Assembly (NCBI GenBank): GCA_927405585.1
Contig: CAKMJS010000029.1
Span: 1-64,000 of the forward strand
DNA from: an uncultured Desulfosporosinus sp.
GTDB taxonomy: Bacteria > Bacillota > Desulfitobacteriia > Desulfitobacteriales > Desulfitobacteriaceae
DNA length: 64,000 bases
Direction of reading: 5' to 3'
Shown in pieces: positions 13,731 to 19,813 of the stretch; positions within the stretch are counted from its first letter, which is position 1; each line of letters begins with the position of its first letter. The notes beneath the pieces were generated by a model. It was not told where the DNA came from and searched no databases. It saw only the letters and a list, made by a program, of their open reading frames with translations. A program made the position numbers and the translations under genes.

Positions 13731-14024
13731 TTAGATACGATGCATGAAAGCAAAGATATCCTCGTGTTGTACCTTCACTTGAAGTCCCTTGACCTTACCC
13801 TGATCTTCCAGCATGCGCGATAATGCGACTAACTCAATATTGGCAGGATCTAAATCAACCACCATAATCATTGTGAAAAATCCACTGATAATAGTCTGAC
13901 TGATATCCAATATGTTTACGCTATATTCTGCGAGTCGCCCGGTGACCCAAGCGATAATGCCGATTTGATCACAACCTAATACGGTAATGATAGCCCGGTT
14001 AGACTCTTGCAATGGTAATGTCAT
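13731..14024 (-). CDS. ACT-domain protein (UPF0237 type)
   Basis: A 97-residue stand-alone ACT domain: AIITVLGCDQIGIIAWVTGRLAEYSVNILDISQTI, then GFFTMIMVVDLD and a final helix-strand. ACT domains bind small ligands, usually amino acids, at dimer interfaces. The start at 14024 is fixed by gggagg 8 bp upstream; the open frame extends further back but only through promoter sequence. It forms an operon with the UPF0210 gene, a pairing seen across Firmicutes, where the ACT protein may be the ligand sensor (inference). Confidence 0.85.
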   Translation of the reverse strand: MTLPLQESNRAIITVLGCDQIGIIAWVTGRLAEYSVNILDISQTIISGFFTMIMVVDLDPANIELVALSRMLEDQGKVKGLQVKVQHEDIFAFMHRI

Positions 14025-14088
14025 AATATTTCCTCCCTTAATAGACGAATGTATTTCCAATATGGACAATAGACTAACATACTTGTGA

Positions 14089-14184: not shown

Positions 14185-14213
14185 AAAAAGAGAGCTCAGT
14201 GAGCTCTCTTTTT
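14185..14213. terminator. Bidirectional rho-independent terminator
   Basis: A perfect 13-bp stem (aaaaagagagctc / gagctctcttttt) with a 3-nt loop. In the minus direction it ends the HesB-like gene that stops at 14228. Confidence 0.85.
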
Positions 14214-14227
14214 ACTAATCTTGTTTT

Positions 14228-14551
14228 TTAGCAACTTCCGCCGCAACTATCGCCGCAGCCACCGCCAGATTTCGCAGTACGTATTTCGAATCCTCCGCCG
14301 TGAGCGGATTCAATATAGTCAACAGTCGCACCCTCTAAATGAATAGTGAGCTTTTTATCTGTTACTAATGATACGCCGTACTCTTCATCAAGAATATCAT
14401 CATCCGTCTTTGACTCTTCCAGAGTCATGCCGAAATTCGGCCCACCTCAGCCAACGCCTACAAGATAGAGGCGAAGAAATGCATTTTCTTTATTTTGATT
14501 TTTTAGCACTTCTTTAACTTTTTTGGCAGCAATTTCTGTAATTTTGACCAT
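14228..14551 (-). CDS. HesB/IscA-like A-type Fe-S protein, candidate selenoprotein (UGA read as Sec)
   Basis: ATG 14551 opens a frame that reads MVKITEIAAKKVKEVLKN and continues to a TGA at codon 35 (14447-14449). The same frame resumes without a shift as GGPNFGMTLEES and ends at 14228, giving 107 residues. In A-type Fe-S assembly proteins the codon before GGPxFG is Cys (VGxGCGGPxFGM), so TGA stands exactly at the first cluster ligand. HesB-like selenoproteins with this Cys-to-Sec change are known. A SECIS-like hairpin follows at the right distance. The C-terminus holds GGGCGDSCGGSC, the other ligands. A terminator follows. The alternative is a pseudogene with one nonsense mutation; the intact flanks argue against it. 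Confidence 0.82.
14411..14427 (-). promoter_or_regulatory. SECIS-like hairpin downstream of the UGA codon
   Basis: The mRNA reads UGACUC-UGGAA-GAGUCA, a perfect 6-bp stem with a 5-nt apical loop whose second base is G. That G lies 27 nt after the UGA codon. Bacterial SECIS elements typically have a short stem, a G among the first loop bases and a loop 16-37 nt downstream. A second hairpin (GCCGA-AUU-UCGGC) lies between the two and overlaps the GGPNFG codons. Confidence 0.65.
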
Positions 14552-14648
14552 AATTCTTCACTCCTTTAAACCTATTCTAATTAATATACCATACTTTTCG
14601 CTTTTCACAATGCTTTTTCAGGAAATAACTACGTTTTCGAGATTATTA

Positions 14649-14888
14649 TCAAACTTCTTTTCCATTCCCACTGGGTCGGAAATCATTCCAGAAACGGCGC
14701 ACCTCCACCTCAATACTGGCAGGAAGATCTTGTGAGAATTTTTGTAATTGTCTAATTTCCCCCTGTAGCTTGAGTGTCCAGTCATTATCTGCCGGCCAAG
14801 AAATAAATGCCTGTGGTTGTGGAACAATGAAGGTTCGTAAAAATCCTAAGATTACTAAGAGAGTAAATACACGCCAAATCCAACGCAT
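14649..14888 (-). CDS. Hypothetical small protein with N-terminal membrane anchor
   Basis: About 79 residues starting MRWIWRVFTLLVILGFLRTF, a basic start followed by one hydrophobic helix (signal anchor), then a short outside domain rich in charged residues (LQGEIRQLQKFSQDLPASIEVEVRRFWNDF in part). The start at 14888 is preferred because aaaggatga lies 8 bp upstream; earlier in-frame ATGs (14900, 14918) lack spacing. It follows the HD hydrolase gene by 34 bp on the same strand. No family recognised. Confidence 0.5.
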   Translation of the reverse strand: MRWIWRVFTLLVILGFLRTFIVPQPQAFISWPADNDWTLKLQGEIRQLQKFSQDLPASIEVEVRRFWNDFRPSGNGKEV

Positions 14889-14922
14889 TGATGAACTCAT
14901 CCTTTCAGAAAAAGCCATTATA

Positions 14923-18556: not shown

Positions 18557-19813
18557 ATGAAAACCTACGATGACATCTTCCAACAACTTATTCATGCAGC
18601 CTATCGGGGGAATTTAACTGATACCATTAACAGTCTTCGTAATTCTGGTAAGGCCGACCAAGAAAAACTTGAACTTCTCCTCCATCCTGAAAATCTATCC
18701 CCAGTCGTACATCTAAGTCAAGACGATTGTTCTTGTTCCCCTGCCCCCTCACCTTGCGAGGTTGCTTGCTTATTCTCTGCAATTGAAAAAGATGCCAAAG
18801 GTCACGTCCTTGTTTCTACCGAGGCATGTGTGGGGTGTGCACGTTGCCTTGAAAGTTGTACAAGTGGCCATCTTGTGGATCGCAGAGATTTTGTCCCACT
18901 CTTTGAAGAACTGTCCTCTCGTAAACATCCAGTTTATGCCATGTTAGCCCCTGCTTTCGTTGGTCAGTTTACTTCTGATGTTAGCCCTGGTAAACTACGC
19001 ACTGCCTTTAAAAAAATAGGGTTTTATGGCATGATGGAAGTTGCTCTTGTTGCCGATATCCTTACGTTGAAAGAAGCCTTTGAGTTCGATCGAGCAATTC
19101 AGAACGACCGGGACTTCCTCTTAACGAGTTGTTGTTGTCCGATGTGGGTTGCTATGATCCGTAAAACCTATCACAAGCTCATCCCCCATCTACCAGCCTC
19201 GGTCTCACCTATGGTGGCCTGTGGTCGAATAATTAAGCACCTTCATCCTGAGGCAAAAACTGTCTTTATTGGGCCTTGTATTGCCAAAAAAGTCGAGGCC
19301 AAAGAAGCTGACATTAAGGATGCTGTCGATTATGTTCTCACATTTCAGGAAATCCAAGATATTTTTAAGGCTGCGGAAATATGTCTTCCCACTCTAGAGG
19401 AAGATGAAAGGGATCACTCCTCCCGCGGAGGACGAATCTATGCCCGAACTGGTGGAGTAAGCTCGGCCGTCTCAGATACTCTGGCCAGACTTCGTCCAGA
19501 TCGCACCATACCCTTGCGCTCTGAGCAGGCAAACGGTATCCTTGCCTGCAAAAAAATGCTTAAGGACGTACAAAATGGTGAAATCAGAGCCAACTTCATT
19601 GAAGGAATGGGTTGTGTGGGTGGATGTGTGGGCGGACCCAAATCCTTGATCAAAGGCGACCTAGCAACGGAATATGTGAACGAATATGGTAATGAAGCCC
19701 CTTATGAGACGCCCGCTGATAACCCCTTTGTCCTACAATTACTTGACAGACTTGGATATGCTACGCTCGAAACTCTGCTTTCTCACGAATCCATGTTTAC
19801 TCGTAAATTCTAA
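18557..19813 (+). CDS. [FeFe]-hydrogenase-like protein, group B type
   Basis: A 418-residue protein with an N-terminal 4Fe-4S ferredoxin part (DDCSCSPAPSPCEVACLF, then CVGCARCLESC at residues 91-101) and a C-terminal H-cluster domain. The three H-cluster motifs are present in modified form: TSCCCPMW (190-197), IGPCIAKK (238-245) and EGMGCVGGCVGGP (349-361). The extra Cys in the first motif and GPC in place of MPC are features reported for group B enzymes such as clostridial CpIII. It may oxidise or evolve H2 with ferredoxin. Group B physiology is poorly known, and maturases HydEFG are not in the window. ATG follows taggggg. Confidence 0.82.
   Translation: MKTYDDIFQQLIHAAYRGNLTDTINSLRNSGKADQEKLELLLHPENLSPVVHLSQDDCSCSPAPSPCEVACLFSAIEKDAKGHVLVSTEACVGCARCLESCTSGHLVDRRDFVPLFEELSSRKHPVYAMLAPAFVGQFTSDVSPGKLRTAFKKIGFYGMMEVALVADILTLKEAFEFDRAIQNDRDFLLTSCCCPMWVAMIRKTYHKLIPHLPASVSPMVACGRIIKHLHPEAKTVFIGPCIAKKVEAKEADIKDAVDYVLTFQEIQDIFKAAEICLPTLEEDERDHSSRGGRIYARTGGVSSAVSDTLARLRPDRTIPLRSEQANGILACKKMLKDVQNGEIRANFIEGMGCVGGCVGGPKSLIKGDLATEYVNEYGNEAPYETPADNPFVLQLLDRLGYATLETLLSHESMFTRKF

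Follow-up and report, generated by a model that had tools for sequence, protein, structure and literature searches.

In carriers of the A-type, iron or an Fe-S cluster is held by Cys35 together with a CxC pair at the C terminus. HesB-like selenoproteins, in which selenocysteine (Sec) stands at the first conserved Cys of a small A-type protein, were catalogued in 2006, together with a Cys form from Desulfitobacterium hafniense that retains a SECIS remnant (Zhang et al., PMC1794560). UxGP has been given as the motif of the family (PMC13188914), and a HesB-like selenoprotein of Methanococcus maripaludis, MMJJ_08070, was identified by means of mutagenesis and 75Se labelling (PMC11097638).

The candidate gene described here lies in a 64,000-nucleotide stretch of DNA from an uncultured Desulfosporosinus sp., which was analysed as a whole and is referred to as the window. 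It joins the known HesB-like selenoproteins and is, as a kind, already described. Common to that family and the window protein are the small A-type architecture, the predicted Sec at the first conserved Cys, the UxGP motif (here UGGP), and a downstream SECIS; the window protein differs in its Cys/Gly-rich C-x3-C-x3-C tail and in model scores that lie under the cut-offs. With IscA, SufA, and ErpA it has the fold in common, and the Sec aligns with their first Cys, but it carries Sec for that Cys and the C-x3-C-x3-C tail for CxC. MMJJ_08070 is likewise a Sec-containing HesB relative, but an archaeal one. In archaeal selenoproteins the SECIS lies outside the reading frame, and MMJJ_08070, being archaeal, is decoded via an archaeal SECIS. 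A search of the open literature found no work naming a Desulfosporosinus HesB selenoprotein. What is new is a clade whose scores miss the thresholds of the two models that NCBI provides for HesB selenoproteins, its C-x3-C-x3-C tail instead of CxC, and the coexistence of a Cys paralogue in the same genome.

Results

The reading frame and its in-frame TGA

The gene runs on the minus strand from 14551 to 14228 as a frame of 108 codons, which ends in TAA and is otherwise free of stops except for a single TGA at codon 35. An earlier note on this DNA, which named no strand, had described a frame intact on both sides of one TGA, and no further stop was encountered. The features of the gene are as follows.

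14228–14551, minus strand: hesB/iscA-like selenoprotein coding sequence (predicted), 107 aa plus TAA, ATG at 14551, Sec at codon 35
14447–14449, minus strand: in-frame TGA, predicted Sec35, aligned with the first conserved Cys of A-type carriers
14561–14567, minus strand: ribosome-binding site AAAGGAG, 9 nt 5′ of the ATG
14231–14257, minus strand: tail codons of C99 (14257–14255), C103 (14245–14243), and C107 (14233–14231), invariant columns

The translation follows the pattern MVKITEIAAKKVKEV...LVGVG-U-GGPNFGMTLEES...CGDSCGGSC, after which the frame stops. Upon alignment, the TGA column is occupied in HI1723 and AQ_1857 by their conserved first Cys, as expected from the proposal that the UGA replaces the conserved Cys of A-type proteins, and U35-G-G-P38 represents the UxGP motif. 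The C-terminal Cys ligands that had also been proposed are only partly as described: the cysteines C99, C103, and C107 are present, but they are spaced C99-x3-C103-x3-C107, and the canonical CxC is absent. Judged from the alignment, these three conserved tail cysteines stand where the CxC would be.

The AAAGGAG motif also precedes related copies of the gene, and a scan for sigma-70 promoters returned promoter-like matches only near chance level. On the 3′ side of the Sec gene, an inverted repeat (AGAGAGCTC..GAGCTCTCT, 14185–14213) lies between A and T runs; it was found by eye, is absent from the terminator-scan list, and is likely a bidirectional terminator.

An A-type protein outside the curated selenoprotein models

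With the TGA read as a residue, the window protein passed the cut-offs of the superfamily models TIGR00049 (72.5 bits, cut-off 58.8) and PF01521 (37.4, cut-off 26.3). It scored under the cut-offs of the ErpA, IscA, and SufA equivalog models, and also under the curated cut-offs of TIGR01911 HesB_rel_seleno (48.6 bits against 66.35) and NF038090 IscA_HesB_Se (68.1 bits against 85); the relatives tested likewise fell under both. Because it misses these two NCBI cut-offs for HesB selenoproteins, the protein is filed as a Sec form of the A-type carrier superfamily and not as a formal member of TIGR01911. The initial description as HesB/IscA-like thus holds at the level of the A-type superfamily, whereas the HesB selenoprotein cut-offs are missed. 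In an AlphaFold model with Sec modelled as Cys (pLDDT 79.9), the predicted fold is of the A-type; comparison with E. coli IscA (1r94) gave a Z score of 14.4 over 96 residues with an rmsd of 2.5. The tail past residue 95 is of low confidence (pLDDT < 50).

An RNA hairpin downstream of the UGA

Three features were located in the sequence that directly follows the UGA.

14411–14427, minus strand: SECIS apical hairpin UGACUC-UGGAA-GAGUCA, +20 to +36 after the UGA
14429–14441, minus strand: proximal hairpin GCCGA-AUU-UCGGC, +6 to +18, just 5′ of the SECIS hairpin
14411–14446, minus strand: codons +1 to +12 after the UGA, synonymous change nearly absent, in Sec copies only

The stem of the apical hairpin starts 20 nt past the UGA and its loop at +26, with G at +27 and +28, so the first loop G is found where a SECIS-like hairpin with a loop G had been noticed, 27 nt downstream. 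Bacterial SECIS elements have been described as having a loop of 3–9 nt with G in the first two loop positions, a stem of 4–16 bp, a distance of 16–37 nt from the UGA, and a free energy of at most −7.5 kcal/mol (PMC13188914). The loop (UGGAA), the 6-bp stem, and the spacing (25 nt from UGA to loop) of the apical hairpin all lie within these rules, and the G-G within a closing U-A pair follows the pattern given in the same work. Folded alone, the apical hairpin has an energy of −7.2 kcal/mol, against the quoted limit of −7.5, and a 45-nt segment reaches −14.7 kcal/mol (z −2.7 versus shuffles). An Rfam search at the hairpin site returned nothing but a sub-threshold chance match to a snoRNA.

Comparison of 19 distinct Sec sequences, with relatives down to ∼35% protein identity, showed 98.2% of the cells of the apical stem to be paired. 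Compensation was seen from G-C to A-U in 5 rows and from A-U to G-C or G-U in 5 rows, and the pairing signal was gone when the partners were slid; the loop reads UGGA(A/U) across Sec copies. The proximal hairpin is 73.7% paired in the same 19 sequences. It is frozen within the genus, partly compensated, and absent in distant relatives, and it may help decoding in the Desulfosporosinus-type clade.

Synonymous identity was defined as the probability that two sequences sharing an amino acid share its codon. Among 24 non-redundant Sec copies of the genus it is 0.975 at codons +1 to +12 versus 0.579 elsewhere, a value never attained when 100,000 codon sets were drawn at random in a permutation. In contrast, no freeze is apparent in the Cys copies (n = 21), with 0.498 at the same codons versus 0.542 elsewhere. 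Constraint on the protein also contributes to the frozen stretch.

Conservation of the locus

The close relatives of the window protein all belong to Desulfosporosinus or its neighbors. A relative is present in 42 of 46 genomes from the family, and its best copy mostly contains a single in-frame TGA. Within Desulfosporosinus the UGA is kept in all syntenic copies that were found, 29 different sequences at the DNA level, and UGA copies also occur in sister genera and in further families of the same order. The gene order HD protein, 89-aa protein, hesB, ACT, DUF711/UPF0210 recurs in nearly all genomes of the genus, with the following immediate neighbors in the window.

14649–14918, minus strand: conserved 89-aa protein, family unassigned, directly upstream and syntenic across the family
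13731–14027, minus strand: ACT-domain protein, downstream, in conserved synteny, followed by DUF711/UPF0210

The 89-aa protein has no Pfam match, and it adjoins the Sec gene in other genera too. Elsewhere in the window, positions 18557–19813 encode a protein with the iron-only hydrogenase large-subunit C-terminal domain (PF02906). In one genome of the comparison (G001), three separate TGA copies were observed (L084, L085, and L087), with differing tails.

The earlier note would have abandoned its reading had homologues in sister strains lacked Cys or Sec at this position; the sister copies examined carry TGA or Cys, with the exception of a single diverged Ser paralogue. A diverged paralogue at L026:3001–3345 has SSD in place of Sec or Cys (VGESSDGPNFG), and the ligand is therefore lost in that copy.

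Selenocysteine machinery

All four genes that the earlier note had named for a check were found in the genome: selA, selB (above cut-off), selD, and selC, the last as a tRNA-Sec with anticodon TCA above the Rfam gathering score. The genome's own selD (KAG-U-GCKIGP) and fdhA, for the formate dehydrogenase alpha subunit (CART-U-HAPTVAGL), carry in-frame TGA codons as well, at the usual Sec positions of both proteins, so UGA recoding looks routine in this genome. For D. orientis, two tRNA-Sec candidates have been reported (PMC5330540); the figure 13 beside the species in that work is read here as its selenoprotein count.

Across the class, 48 of the 50 genomes with a TGA copy have a selB match, and the remaining two are 79% and 85% complete. 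Only two of the seven Cys-only genomes have selB (Fisher p ∼1e-4, with genomes counted regardless of phylogeny). In G038, which has no selB match, the sequence GFG-C-GGPAFG is found in the copy beside the genes for ACT and DUF711; Cys at the syntenic locus of a genome with no selB match is what one would expect were TGA read as Sec.

Duplicated copies with cysteine

The same genome holds a Cys paralogue, L029, on contig C125 (G000:C125, from 32974), with the motif VGMGCGGPNFG, and Cys paralogues are found in many sister genomes, also at loci other than that of the Sec copy. These proteins (L029, L010, and others) resemble the window protein, with ∼61%–82% identity and a similar tail, but differ in having TGC or TGT at the site, in their genomic place, and in lacking the synonymous freeze. 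A SECIS-type hairpin is still visible in L015, L100, and L108, and in a protein tree (112 columns, with many forks unresolved) the Cys paralogues fall within the Sec group. Because some of them keep the hairpin and they nest within this group, a change from Sec to Cys after duplication is suggested, as reported for Desulfitobacterium (PMC1794560).

The surroundings of two paralogues were inspected by eye. Downstream of L029 (L144:4778–8810), open reading frames resemble genes of a peptide/nickel-type ABC transporter. The Cys paralogue of Desulfosporosinus sp. SRJS8 (L010:299–6088) lies between formate-dehydrogenase-like and aldehyde ferredoxin oxidoreductase-like genes.

Discussion

Conservation of the UGA, the frozen codons, the SECIS-type hairpin, the Sec machinery, and the co-occurrence with selB make it very likely (probability of about 0.95) that the UGA at codon 35 is decoded as Sec. 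The gene was first put forward as a candidate selenoprotein, and the conserved UGA, the RNA element, and the machinery support that proposal. In the mechanism envisaged, SelB with Sec-tRNA(Sec) would bind the UGGA-loop hairpin 20–36 nt past the UGA, and insertion of Sec35 would yield a 107-aa A-type (HesB/IscA/ErpA-like) protein. Sec35 would take over from the first conserved Cys and, with the Cys-rich tail, bind iron or a transient Fe-S cluster, and the product would serve this Fe-S-rich anaerobe in cluster carriage or repair. By analogy with the family, a Sec-ligated iron or Fe-S site in the window protein is modestly favored, and its physiological role would be that of an Fe-S carrier or repair protein.

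The main rival reading, possible if less probable, is that Sec35 is made but serves redox chemistry or the binding of selenium or a metalloid, the A-type scaffold having been recruited to another task. The variable Cys/Gly-rich tail in place of CxC, the scores under the ErpA, IscA, and SufA cut-offs, and the lack of isc or suf genes adjoining the window gene would all be consistent with such a role, as would the Methanococcus HesB-like mutant, which is unimpaired in nitrogen fixation (PMC11097638). Against it stand the placement of Sec, precisely where a cluster ligand is expected, and the preserved A-type fold.

A distinct, order-wide clade of Sec A-type proteins whose selenolate and Cys-rich tail would hold a mixed Se/S-ligated cluster, with a two-hairpin SECIS and a duplicated Cys isoform that maybe replaces the Sec form when selenium is scarce, is rather doubtful. 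Quite unlikely is a UGA that acts as a selenium-sensing switch, giving the full protein when selenium is present and a stop when it is not, whereupon the Cys paralogue would take over. Such paralogues are indeed found in this genome (L029, on C125) and in many sister genomes, and selenium-dependent switching between Sec and Cys isogenes is known from Methanococcus (PMC11097638), but the near-complete sister genomes G010, G013, and G016 carry the Sec copy only.

That the UGA is a real stop, leaving a pseudogene or a split gene that restarts at the ATG at 14428 to give a 66-aa C-terminal protein, is highly improbable: a mechanical ORF caller does yield only the 66-aa ORF, but dozens of genomes, far more than chance would allow, share this TGA within an intact frame that is under purifying selection, synonymous sites are frozen in the codons that follow it, and the usual replacement in homologues is Cys. 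A pseudogene, a sequencing error, or a split gene was rejected on the strength of conservation across independent genomes.

With decoding of the UGA as Sec as the preferred reading, genes of this kind can easily be mistaken for pseudogenes or 66-aa fragments, since the UGA is read as a stop. A locus that is fixed for the Sec copies, paralogues with Cys at other places, and Cys at the locus itself where selB gave no match provide a clean natural experiment, which addresses why an Fe-S carrier, as in the HesB-like selenoproteins, would use selenium.
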